Under the pieces are notes generated by a model. It made no database searches and was not told where the DNA came from. It saw only the letters and a program-made list of their open reading frames with translations. The translations under genes were made by a program, and so were the position numbers. 62,231 nucleotides of DNA from Oscillospiraceae bacterium (GTDB lineage: Bacteria > Bacillota > Clostridia > Oscillospirales > Oscillospiraceae), in contig JAJQBY010000055.1 in NCBI GenBank assembly GCA_021203045.1, positions 11,718 to 73,948 on the forward strand, in the 5' to 3' direction. Of the stretch, positions 54,077 through 60,943 are shown one piece after another. The stretch's first letter is position 1, and the number at the start of each line of letters is the position of its first letter.

Positions 54077-54123
54077 AACAAGATCAGGACATCTGCTAGC
54101 ACATGTCCTGATCTTGTTTTTCG
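54077..54123. terminator. 16-bp stem terminator between DHHW and permease genes
   Basis: AACAAGATCAGGACAT (54077-54092) pairs perfectly with 54103-54118, followed by TTTTTCG in the plus direction. It can serve the convergent DHHW and permease genes. Confidence 0.88.
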
Positions 54124-54170: not shown

Positions 54171-55505
54171 CTAGAAGAACAATACGGCCACCAGCAGGGA
54201 AATTAGGGAATAGGCCAGGGGCACCAGAACAGTGGTAATAAATACCTTAGGGTAGGCATCCTTTACTTTCAGCCGGAAAAACAGAATGTTGGATACCACG
54301 GAATTGGCGTGAGGCAAAGAGTCGAAGGTGGTGGCTGTCACACTGGTAAGCCGGTGAATGATATTGGGATCCGCCCCCTGGGAGATAAGCGTAGGCGCAA
54401 TGGTGGAACAAAACAGAATCGGGCCAGTGGAGGTACTAGCCGTCAGTCCGCAAATAAGCGCCACGGAGGCCCAGCATATCACATAGTAATTGGCATCCAG
54501 TCCGGCAAGTATATCCAGCAGGGATTCATAAGCGCTGGTAGCCGCCACCGTGTAGCTGTAGCCACCCAGCACCAGGCACATGACCACAAGTCCTGTGACG
54601 TCATTCACGCCCTTTGCCATTACCTCGATCTTGTTTTCAATACGCTTCCAGTTTAAAATCAGGCATACCACAGAGCCAAAAAACAGGGCCACCAGCACGA
54701 TGGCACGGGAGGAGAAGTCCGTCTGGCCTAAAATAAGGCTTATAATAATAGTGACCGCCACTGGCGCCAGCGCCACCCAGATACTGGGGGCGTTGCTGCC
54801 CAGTTCAAGAACGTCCGTATCCGCCGACATATCCTCTCCCTCATAGGGGTCATAGCCGATGCCCATTGCCCGGCATTTTCTGGTTAGATATGTGACGTAC
54901 AAAAAGCTACATGCCAGGCCAAAAACCGTGCAAAACAACCCAAGCCCTGCTCCAGCGGACAGGCTGGTGCCCAAATAACCGGCCGGTGCAAAGTTGCCCG
55001 CCGTGGCGATGCCAGGAACACACCACAAAATAATGGCGCTACAGGACTGCAGGGCAGTAAAGCCAACAATGCGGGGCATATTTGCCTTTTTCAGCATGGC
55101 GAAGGCGATGGGCGTCACGATGAATACAACGCCGCTTGCCATGCCCGACATACAAAGGATAATAGTGGTAATCGTGATGATGTAGGGTGTTGCCTTCGGC
55201 CCAAAAATTTTATAGAGCTTTACGGTGATCACCTCTCCGGAACGGGTCTTCATCATCAATGCCGCAAATACACCGGCAAACACGAAGGGCAGAAACGTAT
55301 TGGCGGCGGTGGCGCTTGCACCGTCCAGAAAGTTGGTGGTCAGGTTGACAAAGGCCCCATCGGAGGTGCCCAGACCGACAATGATCGCGCACAACAGGCC
55401 CACAAAGGTCAAGTTCCAGCCCTTCATGGTCAGTACACACAGCAGCGCAAAGGATATGACAATCAGCACCGCTGACATAGGAACCGAGGTCATAAACGAC
55501 AGCAT
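54171..55505 (-). CDS. GntP/CitM-type permease
   Basis: A 444-aa integral membrane protein starting at ATG 55505, after AAGGAGAGAAG. About 11-12 helices, two inverted halves with re-entrant Ser/Thr/Gly-rich loops (ASGVVFIVTPIAFAM at about 120-134, and CGLTASTSTGPILFCS at about 344-359), as in ion-transporter-superfamily carboxylate carriers. The closest families I can name are GntP and CitMHS; NhaC-like cannot be excluded. It is the last gene of an operon with three NTF2-like genes and likely imports their substrate or exports product. Substrate unknown; a carboxylate is plausible. Confidence 0.65.
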   Translation of the reverse strand: MLSFMTSVPMSAVLIVISFALLCVLTMKGWNLTFVGLLCAIIVGLGTSDGAFVNLTTNFLDGASATAANTFLPFVFAGVFAALMMKTRSGEVITVKLYKIFGPKATPYIITITTIILCMSGMASGVVFIVTPIAFAMLKKANMPRIVGFTALQSCSAIILWCVPGIATAGNFAPAGYLGTSLSAGAGLGLFCTVFGLACSFLYVTYLTRKCRAMGIGYDPYEGEDMSADTDVLELGSNAPSIWVALAPVAVTIIISLILGQTDFSSRAIVLVALFFGSVVCLILNWKRIENKIEVMAKGVNDVTGLVVMCLVLGGYSYTVAATSAYESLLDILAGLDANYYVICWASVALICGLTASTSTGPILFCSTIAPTLISQGADPNIIHRLTSVTATTFDSLPHANSVVSNILFFRLKVKDAYPKVFITTVLVPLAYSLISLLVAVLFF

Positions 55506-55543
55506 AATTCTTCTCTCCTTTTTTATTTTTTTAGGTTGTAAGG

Positions 55544-56260
55544 TCAATAGCCGTAACCTACATCTTTTTCAAAATTTTCATAGGGCACGGGCAGCGGTGG
55601 GTAGTCATCAGGATAGATGCAGCCGGGCGCATAACCCCACCATCCGTCCGCCTCCCGATCTGCTACACCGTGACGGGGAGATTGTGGATACAGCGCCATT
55701 TCCTCAGGGGAGGAGGGTTGCCAGTCGTGCTTTACCGCTGGACAGTCAACCCAGCACTCATTATAGGGCGCTCCAAAAATACTGTACACCCGTTGGTGAT
55801 ACCAATACCATACGCCGTCCTGCTTAACATAGTCCATACCGTATTTGATATTGGCCCAGTCTACGGTAGCTACATCCTTGTCCGTCGGGACCACACCCCG
55901 GTTTACGTCCGGCCATATGGACATGCCAGGAGAAAGCCAGGTGGCCCGGGCCGTTTGGCCGTCACCCGCTACCTCTATCACACCGCTGGTCATAACATGA
56001 TACAGGATAACACCCAGGCAACGATTTGGCTCATGATAGTCCATATGACGCACCATAAAGTTTTCATATACCCCCTCCTGGCCGTTGTAAGCTCCCCACA
56101 TCATCGTGGAACGCACGCCCTCGTTTTCCGGTGCAAACAGGGCGATGGTCTCCCTCTGCATATTGGCAACGTGATGGAAGCTATAATAACCCATGGAGTT
56201 TTTGATCTCGATCTCCGCTTCCAGCCGAGAGACCTGGGCCTCCAACTGTTCTAAATCCAT
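55544..56260 (-). CDS. NTF2/SnoaL-like protein, paralog 1
   Basis: 238 aa, cytoplasmic. Short helix, then the cone-shaped NTF2-like domain (about 15-165) with features shared by its two neighbours: IALFA..., MMWGAYNGQEGVYENF (about 53-68), GQTARATWLSPG (about 100-111), KYGMDYVKQDGVWYWYHQRV (about 138-157), and C-terminal PVPYENF. This is larger than SnoaL or BaiE (about 130-170 aa) because of a C-terminal extension of about 70 residues that folds back, ending YGYGY-like. SnoaL-fold enzymes include cyclases, isomerases and dehydratases, but no specific reaction can be assigned. GGAGGAGCAG precedes ATG 56260. Confidence 0.75.
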   Translation of the reverse strand: MDLEQLEAQVSRLEAEIEIKNSMGYYSFHHVANMQRETIALFAPENEGVRSTMMWGAYNGQEGVYENFMVRHMDYHEPNRCLGVILYHVMTSGVIEVAGDGQTARATWLSPGMSIWPDVNRGVVPTDKDVATVDWANIKYGMDYVKQDGVWYWYHQRVYSIFGAPYNECWVDCPAVKHDWQPSSPEEMALYPQSPRHGVADREADGWWGYAPGCIYPDDYPPLPVPYENFEKDVGYGY

Positions 56261-56275
56261 TTCCTGCTCCTCCTT

Positions 56276-56956
56276 TCAATATCCGTAGCCAATGTTGGCA
56301 AAGGTCTTATAGGGTGTTGAAACGGCCGGGCATCCCTGGGAGTAGACTGCGTTTTTGTTGTAATGCCATGTGACCGTTGGCTCCCGATCCGGTGCGCCCT
56401 CGCCCGTTGGGCGGAAATAGTTGAAAAACACCTGAGAATCCGGACGTTGCTCGGCGCCCTCTGTCCAACTGGTATAGAAATCACACAGAAAAATATCGTA
56501 TACATGCAGGTGCCAAAACTTCCATTGACCGTTTTCCAAAATAAAATCTGCCCCATAATTCCGCAGGCTCCAGTACCCATCCAACGCACGCTTTTCAGTT
56601 TTTCCGCTGGAATGTCCGTAGGATTGCCAGGTGGCCCGGGCCGTCAGACCGTCATCCGCAGGAACAATCACTACGGACATGGCGTTTGATACATGCATTT
56701 CATTTTCCCGGCGTTCTATCTCCTCCGGCTTGGGATGGGCTATGGTAAAGCACCGACAAATGCTGTCGTAGCCGTCGTATATGCCCCACAGCATTTCCAC
56801 CCGGCTGTCCTGCCGGACCGCGAACAGCTCCAAAAGCGCATCTCCCTTACTCATGGGGTACAGCTGGCAAAACTTTCCTATCAGCTTATTGACCGCGGAC
56901 ACGCACTGCGCACGGCAGAGCTTTTCCCGCATTTCTTCCAACACAGCGGTATTCAT
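56276..56956 (-). CDS. NTF2/SnoaL-like protein, paralog 2
   Basis: 226 aa, starting at ATG 56956 with AAGGAGGTGCG upstream, 13 bases after paralog 3. It shares the pattern of its neighbours: LLELFAVRQDSRVEMLWGIY (about 47-66), LTARATWQSYG, NYGADFILENGQWKFWHLHV (about 138-157) and C-terminal STPYKTFANIGYGY. The His-x-His in WHLHVYD is a candidate catalytic site, present as YHQRVYS in paralog 1 and WRLHEYN in paralog 3, so the three probably differ in reaction or form hetero-oligomers. Function unknown. Confidence 0.75.
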   Translation of the reverse strand: MNTAVLEEMREKLCRAQCVSAVNKLIGKFCQLYPMSKGDALLELFAVRQDSRVEMLWGIYDGYDSICRCFTIAHPKPEEIERRENEMHVSNAMSVVIVPADDGLTARATWQSYGHSSGKTEKRALDGYWSLRNYGADFILENGQWKFWHLHVYDIFLCDFYTSWTEGAEQRPDSQVFFNYFRPTGEGAPDREPTVTWHYNKNAVYSQGCPAVSTPYKTFANIGYGY

Positions 56957-56969
56957 ATGACGCACCTCC

Positions 56970-57668
56970 TTAGTAGGCCATGGAAAGATCAAATGTTTTA
57001 TATGGTACGGGCACCCTGGGTCGGTTCATAGGAAACAGCTCCACAACGCTGTACCGGAAGGTGCTAGACGGCGGCTCGTCCGGAAGCTGAGGCGACTCGC
57101 CGGCAAAATAGTTCGCCTGGGTAGTGCCGCACAGCTTATAGGGGTCATACGGCGGCTCCTGAGTCCATTGCCGGTCAAAGGGAGATTTGCACACATTGTA
57201 CTCATGCAGCCGCCAGATTTTCCAGTCGTCCTCCTGGCGAACAAAATTCACGCCATAGTGGTTCCATGTCCAATAGGCGTCGATAGCGTCGCCAGTACTG
57301 TCCTGCTTTTGCGTATCGGTCCCGGTGCATATCCAGGCGCCGCAGGCCGTCTGCCGGTCTTCCGCCACAATGATTACCGGCGTCCCCAGGGGCCGCAGAT
57401 GCAGCTCTCCCTCCTGTCCATACCGGTCTGTGAACAACGGGTTTTGAAAGGAAAAGCAACGCTTTACACCGTTCATCCCCTTATAAAGGCCCCAGGTCAT
57501 CTCTGCTTTTGTGTCCGGCCGGTCAGCGAAGAGAGATATAATCCGGGCTCCGTCAAAGGCCGCATAATATTGGCTGAACGCACTCATGAGACTGCTGATG
57601 GCATTATAATCCTCGACTCTTTCGAGCCGGAGCAGCAGGTCCTCCAACCGTTTTTCCTGTTCTTCCAT
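56970..57668 (-). CDS. NTF2/SnoaL-like protein, paralog 3
   Basis: 232 aa, first gene of the four-gene minus operon. An N-terminal coiled helix (EEQEKRLEDLLLRLERVEDY) precedes the NTF2-like domain: IISLFADRPDTKAEMTWGLY (about 43-62), GVKRCFSFQN, HYGVNFVRQEDDWKIWRLHE (about 138-157) and C-terminal PVPYKTFDLSMAY. The middle ARATW motif is CGAWICTG here, so this copy is the most divergent. AAGGAGATC precedes ATG 57668. It is separated by 102 bases from the divergent LysR gene, the likely regulator. Function unknown. Confidence 0.75.
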   Translation of the reverse strand: MEEQEKRLEDLLLRLERVEDYNAISSLMSAFSQYYAAFDGARIISLFADRPDTKAEMTWGLYKGMNGVKRCFSFQNPLFTDRYGQEGELHLRPLGTPVIIVAEDRQTACGAWICTGTDTQKQDSTGDAIDAYWTWNHYGVNFVRQEDDWKIWRLHEYNVCKSPFDRQWTQEPPYDPYKLCGTTQANYFAGESPQLPDEPPSSTFRYSVVELFPMNRPRVPVPYKTFDLSMAY

Positions 57669-57703
57669 TTTGATCTCCTTTTCTTTTTGGTCTGGTTCTG
57701 CAC

Positions 57704-57748
57704 TTTACAGTAGCCCGCCGTTAATGCTATAATATTCACAAGATGTAT
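57704..57748 (+). promoter_or_regulatory. LysR promoter with ATA-N11-TAT dyad
   Basis: TTTACA (57704-57709), 18-bp spacer, TATAAT (57728-57733). ATA (57732-57734) and TAT (57746-57748) flank 11 bases, a spacing typical for LysR-regulator boxes. It lies between the divergent LysR and NTF2-like genes and can control both. Confidence 0.5.
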
Positions 57749-57770
57749 AATAGCCGGGGAGGGCAGAGCT

Positions 57771-58697
57771 TTGGAACTGATACAATTATTTTATTTTCGC
57801 CGGGTGGCTAAAAAGCAAAATATTGCCCAGGTCGCCAAGGAGCTGTATATCTCTCAGCCCACACTGAGTCGGTCGCTGTCCCGACTGGAGGATGAACTGG
57901 GTGTCCATCTGTTTGAGCGGACGGGGAATAAAATAACCATTAATGAATTTGGCCGGGTGTTTGAGGCCTACGTTGACCGGGTATTTTCTGAGCTGGAAAA
58001 CGCCCAGAAGCAATTGAATACCATGATGAGCCGCACGGACGACGACATCCGCGTCGGCCTGCCCCACACCGGGCTTATCAGCAATATGATCCTTGACTAT
58101 GTGGCAAAAAATCCCGATGTACACATATCGCAGACCATTCTGCCGGTCTCCGCCGTGCGGAATCAGCTTTTAAATGGCCAGTTGGATTTTGCGCTGTCCT
58201 TTGTCCCGCCGGAGGATGACCGGCTGACATGGAATTCCTATGGAACAGACGGGATGTCCGTAATGATTTCCGAACAGCATCCTCTGTACTCGTCTCCAAC
58301 GATCGACCTGCGCCAGATGGCGGACGCGACGTTTATCATCAATAACTCCAATACGGACCTGAACACGATTTTCCAAACCGCTTTCCAGGAGGCCGGCTTC
58401 GCGCCCCGCATTATCTTTGGCGGTGACGAACCTAGACTTATCAGTGCTCTCGTCAAGGAAAACAAAGGCATATTCCTCCTGCCAAACGTAGTCAACCGCC
58501 TGAACATTCTCGATTCAAACCCCTTCGGCCAGCGGCAGGGCTACCGGACCATCCCTCTCTCCTTTCCCCGGTGCAATATCGCCTTTGGGGTCTGCTCGCT
58601 GAAGGAACGCACAATGAATCTTCACGCACGACTATTCTATGCTTATGTCTGTGCCACCCTGTCCCACATACTCACCAACCGTCATCTAGCACTTTGA
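57771..58697 (+). CDS. LysR regulator of the NTF2-like module
   Basis: 308 aa from TTG 57771, with GGAGGGCAG upstream. The LysR helix-turn-helix is at 1-60 (YFRRVAKKQNIAQVAKELY, then SQPTLSRSLSRLEDELGVHL), and the effector domain is at about 90-300 (DDIRVGLPHTGLISNMILDY). It is transcribed away from the three NTF2-like genes and the permease, so it is their probable activator in response to a pathway compound. Codon use is visibly less GC-rich than that of the LysR gene at 137, consistent with shared recent acquisition of the module. No terminator follows before the right repeat. Confidence 0.9.
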   Translation: MELIQLFYFRRVAKKQNIAQVAKELYISQPTLSRSLSRLEDELGVHLFERTGNKITINEFGRVFEAYVDRVFSELENAQKQLNTMMSRTDDDIRVGLPHTGLISNMILDYVAKNPDVHISQTILPVSAVRNQLLNGQLDFALSFVPPEDDRLTWNSYGTDGMSVMISEQHPLYSSPTIDLRQMADATFIINNSNTDLNTIFQTAFQEAGFAPRIIFGGDEPRLISALVKENKGIFLLPNVVNRLNILDSNPFGQRQGYRTIPLSFPRCNIAFGVCSLKERTMNLHARLFYAYVCATLSHILTNRHLAL

Positions 58698-58907: not shown

Positions 58908-60596
58908 TCAGTCGATACCGCCGAAGTCCCCGGGAGGCTCCTCGCCCGGCTCCAGATCTTCGGGGATCTCGGGAGCGTCGTCCGGAGCTTCCTCGCTGAC
59001 CTCGCCGGAAGCGTCCTCAGAAACCTCCTCAGAGGCGGCATCCGCGCCGTCGCTGAAATCATGGGCCTCAGCGTACTCGTTGCCCTCCTCATCGGTGGGG
59101 ATGTAGCTAGCGTCGATGTATTCCGCAGCAATGGCCTCGGGATCGAAGCTGTAAGCGGTCTCGGTGCCGATGTTGGCCACGTTCTCCTGAGCGGACAGAT
59201 CCTCCTCGGAGTAGGTGCCGGTCACGGTCAGGGTCAGAGCGGAATCGCCCTGGACATACACAGTGCCGTCCGCAGCGGCGATGGTGACGGTGGCGCCGTC
59301 CTCATCCACGATGACGCTGCCGCCGGTGTAGAGGTTCTGCACGGTGGAATCAGCGGTCAGGATGATGGTGGAGATGTCATCCAGATACACAGAGCAGCCT
59401 CGGTCGCCGTTGTCCTCACTCTGGACGAACGCCGTGGTGGCCACGGAGCCGTCGGTGAAGTAGCAGTCCAGATAGCTCCAGGTATCGAAGATAATGTCGC
59501 CCTCGATCTCCTGGTCGATGCAGTACAGCACGCACTCAGAGCCGTTGGCCCCGGCAGTGCCCCAGCCGCGCTGGTTGGTGTTGCAGGCGCACAGCAGGAA
59601 GGCATAATAGGTCTCGGGATAGATCATCTCCACATCATAGAGGCTGATGTAGCAGTAGGTGTTGGTGGTATAGAACATCTTGTAGTTTTCAAGGTTCTCG
59701 GAGTTCACGGCCTTCAGCACGCCGCCCACCATGGTGAAGTAGGAGGTGCCCTCCTCGGAGTCGCCGGACATGGACTGATAGATCATAACATTGGAGGCCT
59801 CATCGTCGTCAGAGGCGGTGTAGTTGCCCTCCAGATAGCAGTTATAGACCTTGCCGGGGTTGCGGCCCTCGAAGCAGAACGCCTGGGCGTTCTTGGCGAT
59901 CAGGGTAGCGTTGGAGACGGTGATGTCCGCCACGCAATACACGGCGGGGGAGCCGGTGCCCAAACTGCCGTTGGAGATGTAGGAGCCGCCGTCGATGACC
60001 ATCAGCCCGCCGCCCCGGTCGGAGCGGATGGCGGCGGAGGAGCCGCCCTCGGTGGTGACATACAGGTCGGAGGCGTACATGGTGCCGCCGCCGGCTACCA
60101 TGATGCCGCCGGAGGCAGAGCCGTCGGTGTCAACGATGGAGTCGGAGATGGTGATGGTGGAGTCGCCATAGGCGAACACGCCGTTGGCGCCGGTGGCGTT
60201 GGTGTAAACGCTGGAGCCAGTAATGGTCAGGTCCGCATCCTCATAGGTGTGGACGCCGGAGTTGGTGCCGTAGAAGGAGGCATCGTCGCCGGACAGGTCG
60301 CCGGCGGACTTGACGATGGTGCTGTCCTCGATGACAGCCACAACGCCCTCTCCGGCGCGGACGCCGGCCTCATTGTCTCCGGTGGACTCGGCAAACTCAA
60401 CGCCGGAATAGGTCTCGCTCTCCAGATCCGTGGCCGCGCCGCCCTCCGTATAGGAGCTGGAGCCGCCGCCGGGCATGCCCATGCCCCCGCTGGCCTCACC
60501 GCTGGCCTCGCTGCTGGCAAACGCGCCCACGCTCAGGGCCAGCACCATTGCCAGCGCCATAAGAGTGGAGAGGATACGTTTCCATGTGTGTTTCAT
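58908..60596 (-). CDS. Secreted beta-helix-like protein with acidic tail
   Basis: 562 aa from ATG 60596, with AAGGAAGGAAC upstream. Signal peptide KHTWKRILSTLMALAMVLALS, cleavage near AFA-SSEA at about 26. A Ser/Gly/Met-rich stretch follows, then many repeated short strands with SITISDS, STIVDT and GGIMVAGGG-type turns up to about residue 430, as in right-handed parallel beta-helix proteins; the last 60 residues are acidic and repetitive (SEEVSEDASGEVSEE, PEDLEPGEEPPGD). No LPXTG or anchor. It shares the post-signal pattern and fold type with 35407-37374. Surface adhesin or wall-associated protein are possible; no catalytic motif was found. Confidence 0.75.
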   Translation of the reverse strand: MKHTWKRILSTLMALAMVLALSVGAFASSEASGEASGGMGMPGGGSSSYTEGGAATDLESETYSGVEFAESTGDNEAGVRAGEGVVAVIEDSTIVKSAGDLSGDDASFYGTNSGVHTYEDADLTITGSSVYTNATGANGVFAYGDSTITISDSIVDTDGSASGGIMVAGGGTMYASDLYVTTEGGSSAAIRSDRGGGLMVIDGGSYISNGSLGTGSPAVYCVADITVSNATLIAKNAQAFCFEGRNPGKVYNCYLEGNYTASDDDEASNVMIYQSMSGDSEEGTSYFTMVGGVLKAVNSENLENYKMFYTTNTYCYISLYDVEMIYPETYYAFLLCACNTNQRGWGTAGANGSECVLYCIDQEIEGDIIFDTWSYLDCYFTDGSVATTAFVQSEDNGDRGCSVYLDDISTIILTADSTVQNLYTGGSVIVDEDGATVTIAAADGTVYVQGDSALTLTVTGTYSEEDLSAQENVANIGTETAYSFDPEAIAAEYIDASYIPTDEEGNEYAEAHDFSDGADAASEEVSEDASGEVSEEAPDDAPEIPEDLEPGEEPPGDFGGID

Positions 60597-60943
60597 AGTT
60601 CCTTCCTTTCCGCACTGTCTACCGCTGCGCCGGGCAGTCATTATTTTTGCCCGGCTCCTTTACCTGCCGATAGATGTGCTGATTAACATTATAATATAAA
60701 CGTTTGTTAAAGTCTATAACAATTTTAATTTTTTTGTGAATTTTTTATGTTATTCAGATAAGCCGATCGCCTGATATATCTTATAAAATGCATTCCCGCC
60801 CGGCCTCGATAGGGCAGGGGAGAATTTTATGTAAATTTTAAGGAATAGGTAGTTGACAGCGTGTAACTTTTGTGATAAATTGTTTTCAGATCGTAACCAA
60901 TTTGTAACTTTTATCAAATTTGGCAGAGCGTGGGGTGATAGAT
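60597..60943. other. 347-base divergent intergenic region
   Basis: Holds the promoter side of the minus beta-helix gene (A/T-rich about 60680-60760) and the plus promoter described at 60853. No gene or clear RNA structure is visible. Confidence 0.5.
60853..60912 (+). promoter_or_regulatory. Pseudokinase promoter with direct repeats
   Basis: TTGACA (60853-60858), 17-bp spacer, TAAATT (60876-60881). TGTAACTTTT occurs at 60862-60871, inside the spacer, and again at 60903-60912, 41 bp apart, so a regulator may bind both. Confidence 0.6.

Follow-up and report, generated by a model that had tools for sequence, protein, structure and literature searches.

The window analysed here is a 62,231-nucleotide stretch of DNA from an Oscillospiraceae bacterium (assembly GCA_021203045.1, contig JAJQBY010000055.1, positions 11,718 to 73,948), which at 54171–58697 holds a cluster of five genes: three adjacent ones for related SnoaL_4 proteins of 226–238 amino acids (aa), one for a permease and, facing them, one for a divergent LysR regulator. 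All five (P0001 to P0005), as proposed by an initial annotation made from the letters of the DNA, are present with open reading frames, and its picture of an uptake-plus-lyase operon beside a LysR gene holds, and the three related proteins are dehydratase- or lyase-like. The NTF2-like lyase fold is known from homotrimers. We consider it about an even bet that the operon encodes a single hetero-oligomeric enzyme, most likely a heterotrimer, which has the LdpA/scytalone-dehydratase fold and acts as a cofactor-free lyase or dehydratase with P0002 as the catalytic subunit, together with an importer and a regulator. Paralogs whose active sites are unequal and that stay together in matched sets of three are the trace expected of a heterotrimer and suggest one here; we infer the heterotrimer, the identity of its catalytic subunit, the reaction and the substrate from comparisons of sequences and predicted structures.

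The three paralogs and their characterised relatives

In transcription order on the minus strand the cluster runs from P0004 (56970..57668, 232 aa) through P0003 (56276..56956, 226 aa from the ATG behind AAGGAGGTG) and P0002 (55544..56260, 238 aa) to the permease gene P0001, with gaps of 13, 15 and 38 bp. The three paralogs are mutually 26–32% identical. Against the Pfam family SnoaL_4 (PF13577, cut-off 24 bits) P0002 and P0004 score 33.8 and 39.0 bits and P0003, at 23.1 bits, lies marginally under the cut-off; P0003 also matches the LdpA chains 8abu/8abt at E values of 5e-4 to 6e-4, and an NCBIfam search of the three proteins gave no match. The common motif pattern first described for them stands in part: WGxYxG is shared by all three, but only P0002 and P0003 have ARATW exactly (P0004 reads ACGAW), and the third motif (YGMDYV, YGADFI and YGVNFV) and the C-terminal one (PYENF, PYKTF and PYKTF) vary. 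Separate AlphaFold predictions, made for two of the three proteins, reached a mean predicted local distance difference test (pLDDT) score of 90.1 for P0004 and 84.6 for P0002; both models match LdpA, LinA, BaiE and scytalone dehydratase, the cone-shaped alpha+beta barrel of SnoaL_4/NTF2-like proteins, and show an LdpA-like predicted fold.

A profile built from 17 relatives spans LdpA chains over their full length (E 2e-23 to 1e-19), and the models of P0004 and P0002 align with LdpA over about 200 residues at 23–25% identity. LdpA and PcfL, NTF2-like gamma-formaldehyde lyases of lignin dimers from Novosphingobium and Sphingobium, are thus alike in fold and homologous over their full length, and each is described (PMC12997858; PMC11323797) as a single enzyme, whereas the window operon has three genes, two of which lack the equivalent of LdpA His97. 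The match to this characterised family is distant rather than close for all three proteins; in addition, the column thought to correspond to the Asp of the LdpA dyad, itself assigned by inference, has no Asp among the residues listed. The claim that the paralogs are larger than known enzymes of this kind is correct with respect to BaiE (chains of 185–188 aa) but not with respect to LdpA (251–263 aa).

BaiE, the bile-acid 7-alpha-dehydratase that gut clostridia encode beside BaiCD in their bai operon, is a weaker relative. The profile matches it at E 0.0017 to 0.02, compared with 2e-23 for LdpA, which is no close sequence match, and orthology to BaiE was rejected on the weak sequence match, the difference in size and the lack of an NCBIfam match. 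The bai operon carries two SnoaL_4 genes (PMC10382948), baiE and the unassigned baiI, the latter suspected to act on the other epimer; the window operon carries three. Among the trimeric cofactor-free lyases and decarboxylases, LinA is a homotrimer (PMC3507683) and AGDC1/PPP2 are trimers (PMC7862292), whereas here there are three different genes; for LinA, scytalone dehydratase and AGDC1 the correspondence of the His columns to those of the triad proteins is indirect, drawn through LdpA. Among the top-listed titles of the literature searches, a weak basis for a negative, there was no description of a SnoaL/NTF2-like gene triad or of its pathway, in line with the initial statement that no pathway with three such paralogs could be named.

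Two of the copies might have been non-coding decay products, a possibility that we rejected because each pairs in trees with a gene from another species. P0003 and P0004 are both open, and their partners, at 40% identity in either case, lie in L037 (G031:C63), where the partner of P0003 runs into the contig end.

Recurrence and co-inheritance of triads

Searching named genomes gave 83 relatives, and 80 loci were retained from these. Triads occur in Oscillospiraceae and Eubacterium records, some of them labelled rumen, red deer or roe deer; by reading of the list, 63 of the 68 loci from other organisms have one such gene in the stretch examined. Two further triads lie in the same genome as the window, one at 170-4329 of L009 (G000:C110:1-11717) with an Opp-type ATP-binding cassette (ABC) transporter and a BaiCD-like flavoenzyme, the other at 7490-9722 of L010 (G000:C106:5000-14871) with a tripartite ATP-independent periplasmic (TRAP) transporter and an esterase. 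Both belong to what we call type I, which a tree of 75 proteins separates from the type II genes, the window's three included. Within type I each gene position, from first to third, has a clade of its own with 10 rows (support 100/99, 96/94 and 100/99).

Positions 1-2-3 stand in order in 63 of 84 runs, from 17 genomes or records. This tally covers 74 loci on 66 contigs that were chosen for holding matches, so the number three is conditional on a match; records judged the same as kept ones (L052-L055, L057, L059, L065, L117, L131), longer secreted-looking homologues (L011, L043-L048, L050, L051), L072 and distant homologues from other groups were left out. Because 31 of the 63 ordered runs come from four genomes of one genus, the runs are not independent. 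One genome, G476, has 13 ordered triads, one with position 1 turned round and one possibly split over two contig ends. These 63 ordered type I runs and the two further triads in the window's own genome indicate that the arrangement is more than chance. The longer SnoaL_4-like proteins set aside here, such as L011:8318-9325 (-) and similar ones in L043-L048, L050 and L051, mostly have signal-peptide-like starts by eye, and L044 carries two of them adjacent.

The domain envelopes of neighbouring type I positions are a median of 17 and 8 bp apart. For 62 of the 63 triads (the other has a third gene cut by the fetch boundary) the correlations between the distance matrices of the positions are r 0.87, 0.90 and 0.91; when partners were swapped within genomes the mean r was about 0.2, and 0 of 2000 swaps reached the observed value. 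The positions diverge at a similar pace, with median distances of 0.58–0.63. On these correlations and the failure of the swaps to reach them, we hold with high confidence that the type I genes have been inherited together as matched sets, in order and without exchange of partners.

Nine triads of type II were found, in the window, G520, G476:C10, G031, G004, G027, G556 and two Eubacterium records; a further six genes of this type stand alone, and two form a pair at a contig end. The triads of G031, G004 and G027 are near copies, and the two Eubacterium ones stand directly before a type I triad. Type II paralogs cluster mostly by locus and not by position, except that in the subgroup of L056, G520 and G556 the positions are orthologous between members. 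The approximately unbiased (AU) test rejected (p 0.0001) a clade of first positions common to type II, a group named after the first tree had been seen. Since the paralogs group by cluster and the shared clade fails, type II triads were built, at least in part, by separate duplications that again reached three. At L039:10024-10524 (-) (G004:C321), in an incomplete genome, the first gene of a type II triad has an in-frame TGA; the close G031 and G027 copies are open.

Position 3 found a match in 16 of 400 genomes of a family sample, 14 of them strong (E under 1e-90), and in 5 of 391 genomes of a class sample, where only the window's own genome, included in both samples, matched strongly. At most six candidates per genome were scored in these samples, so that the counts of loci and runs given above are lower bounds.

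Catalytic histidines and the case for a mixed trimer

The aligned catalytic residue corresponds to H97 of NaLdpA, whose H97Q mutant is named in the entry title of the substrate complex 8abu; the 8abu row accordingly reads Q and the 8abt row H. At this column P0004 has Arg, P0003 Ser and P0002 His, and only P0002 has both this residue and a second His in the first helices. In type I, a His lies within one column of the His97 place in 1 of 66 position 1 proteins, where Lys or Arg stands in 41 of 66, and at the column itself in 49 of 67 at position 2 and 66 of 69 at position 3; the second His is present in 66 of 69 at position 3 and in 6 of 67 position 2 proteins, and the residues listed for position 1 do not include it. 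Written as His presence along the 59 exact 1-2-3 runs, 44 are xHH, 13 xxH and 2 xxx. The census also counted the open L039 piece of 166 aa and fragments cut off by contig ends.

Natural two-domain forms bear on the same question. In G476:C80 (L228:3341-5254 (-)) a single-domain and a two-domain SnoaL_4 protein, the latter at L228:3341-4564(-), are adjacent and give three domains in total, and in L049 (L049:3873-5339(+)) positions 1 and 2 lie in one frame; both arrangements point toward a mixed trimer. Widespread fusion was rejected: among eight SnoaL open reading frames (ORFs) of at least 330 aa, a set to which the L228 case came as a later addition, seven hold one SnoaL domain and only that of L049 holds two, the seven being explained by an over-long start or, in L174:2377-3981, by an extra C-terminal part. 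The latter, on the minus strand of G476:C61, is a type I position-3 protein in which a long Gly/Pro-rich linker accompanies the extra part.

The initial annotation left open stepwise conversion by related enzymes or a hetero-oligomer, and the evidence leans to the hetero-oligomer, given that one of the three proteins has the catalytic His and that type I sets are co-inherited. Several observations weigh against this. The co-inheritance and the tight spacing also fit a three-step pathway, and the matched-set evidence comes from type I, while the window triad is type II. P0002, the proposed catalytic subunit, is a long branch of unsure placement in the trees. Most type I position 2 proteins retain the His97 equivalent, and where it is missing new catalytic residues may have arisen; Lys or Arg is common there at position 1. 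In four type II triads (G520, G556 and the two Eubacterium records) all three proteins have both His, and four of the six single type II genes keep both, so that in type II one gene may be enough by itself; in the G031/G004/G027 triads the gene without His is the third. Among type I runs, G473:C17 has positions 1 and 3 without 2, and G476:C60 has 2-3 beside a turned-round position 1; the other exceptions are four pieces cut off by contig ends. A frameshift, an indel or an assembly error may account for the L049 fusion, in a genome whose stated completeness is 64%. Finally, by reading, no flavoenzyme is found among the ORFs beside the window operon.

The all-His type II triads would fit three separate homotrimeric enzymes that act in sequence, or each on its own stereoisomer, on one imported compound, in the manner of BaiE and the suspected BaiI on 7-alpha and 7-beta hydroxyls. 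The gene layout, the shared regulator, the precedent of the two SnoaL_4 genes of the bai operon and the similar pace of divergence of the type I positions also favour this alternative, which we nevertheless regard as rather unlikely: it sits poorly with the near absence of a His at the catalytic place of type I position 1, the strict gene order without exchange of partners, the existence of two-domain forms and the rarity of two-gene runs not explained by a contig end (G473:C17, G476:C60 and the one- plus two-domain pair of G476:C80). The lack of shared position orthology among type II clusters and the many SnoaL_4 genes of some genomes could also reflect tandem duplication for dosage or by drift, with no division of labour and with P0003 and P0004 on their way to loss. 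Against so simple an expansion, which we judge improbable, P0003 and P0004 each pair with a gene of another species and the type I positions are three clades of 66–69 copies each in the census. Some NTF2-like proteins sequester compounds for transport or signalling, and the triad might likewise bind or sense its compound without converting it; that both His persist in P0002 and at type I position 3, that the flavoenzyme neighbours fit catabolism and that the closest structural matches are enzymes make such a role improbable. A heterotrimeric lyase with P0002 as the catalytic subunit is the explanation that we prefer to these three.

Transport, regulation and the proposed pathway

The last gene of the operon, P0001 (54171..55505 (-), 444 aa), was initially called a GntP/CitM-type permease. 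It aligns over most of the GntP profile but falls below both curated cut-offs for gluconate permeases (18.9 bits against 22.5 for GntP, PF02447, and 22.1 against 292.75 for TIGR00791), so the assignment stands as a likeness only. The related permease at G027 (L040) passes the GntP cut-off with 23.6 bits, and the related permease of G520 matches CitMHS instead (20.4 bits, cut-off 31.9). Six of the seven stand-alone type II triads have beside them a permease akin to P0001 or to the G027 one, and six have a LysR gene within 5 kb; three of these triads are near copies from a single genus. In the two Eubacterium six-gene runs TRAP genes stand in place of a P0001-type permease, where the contig reaches.

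The regulator P0005 (57771..58697 (+), 308 aa, TTG start; LysR_substrate 81.8 bits and HTH_1 63.5 bits, both over the cut-off) diverges from the triad genes across 102 bp (57669..57770), presumably the LysR control region. A weak promoter-like site (TTTACA-18-TATAAT, 57704-57733 (+)) lies there; the promoter scan found 7 sites against 5.0 expected in the scanned stretch and the terminator scan 6 against 4.8, both near chance. The triad and permease genes are presumably co-transcribed. Just 3' of the permease, a strong hairpin with a T-poor tail (54077..54118 (-); -35.4 kcal/mol for a 76-nt stretch, z -5.59) is a likely operon end, and is not among the sites listed by the consensus terminator scan. 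The cluster has a G+C content of 52.6%, against 60.6% for the remainder of the window, and is its lowest-G+C stretch; it may therefore be a later arrival, as the low G+C hints at horizontal transfer. Just beyond the LysR gene, a 577-aa protein (58908-60641 (-)) with a signal-peptide-like start by eye has a weak beta-helix match below the cut-off, and its sole non-self match among the ORFs searched is L189:6168-8015 (E 6e-174), near a type I triad of G674.

Comparison of genome neighbourhoods, suggested at the outset as a way to find co-occurring enzymes, gave several recurring families. Flavoenzymes lie within 4 kb of 19 of the 84 runs, in 11 genomes, and with LysR genes (18 runs, 14 genomes) are the commonest recurring neighbours; solute-binding proteins (12), ABC ATPases (11), AraC-type regulators (9), FAD_binding_2 reductases (7) and beta-helix proteins of another family than the 577-aa one (7) are rarer, and all of these counts are limited because many loci have short flanks. 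Of ten flavoenzymes scanned, eight best match the BaiCD NCBIfam model, at 392–445 bits, and two mycofact_OYE_2, and all ten span 374–445 bits on BaiCD, under its cut-off of 825; the window operon differs from the bai operon also in having no such gene. A family of about 270 aa without a Pfam match occurs near triads in four genomes (L171:7394-8218 (-) and, by eye, L065:13808-14608 (+)). In Catenibacillus scindens (L063) and Murimonas intestini (L128), each with one distant homologue in the stretch, the neighbours gave no clear functional lead.

If the preferred model of a heterotrimeric lyase is correct, LysR would sense the substrate or the product and switch on permease and enzyme, the permease would import an organic acid or acidic conjugate, and the enzyme would eliminate water or a one-carbon unit without a cofactor. 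P0002 would carry the active site, and P0003 and P0004, having lost the catalytic His, would serve as structural, substrate-binding or regulatory subunits. At many related loci the nearby BaiCD-like flavoenzyme could then reduce the new double bond; lyase and flavoenzyme together would resemble the logic of bile-acid 7-dehydroxylation (PMC10382948). The wider system would then convert cyclic compounds derived from plants or the host by anaerobic dehydration followed by reduction. Because of the relation to LdpA and the herbivore sources, we would guess, with low confidence, at plant phenolics or lignin fragments as the substrate class.

Rather more tentatively, we propose that NTF2-like lyases have evolved more than once into obligate heterotrimers of catalytic and degenerate paralogs in anaerobic gut bacteria, and that some rumen species with at least 13 different such enzymes, often with an importer or a BaiCD-like reductase nearby, possess an undescribed anaerobic machinery that dehydrates and then reduces plant phenolics, lignin fragments or sterols. 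Should the triad be one enzyme, the NTF2-like lyase fold would gain a form with mixed subunits, some of which no longer catalyse, and gut bacteria, several of them of rumen or deer origin, would be added to the carriers of cofactor-free chemistry of the LdpA type. With 13 ordered triads in one genome, the family is so rich in copies that it is likely to be central to the use of some class of imported compounds.

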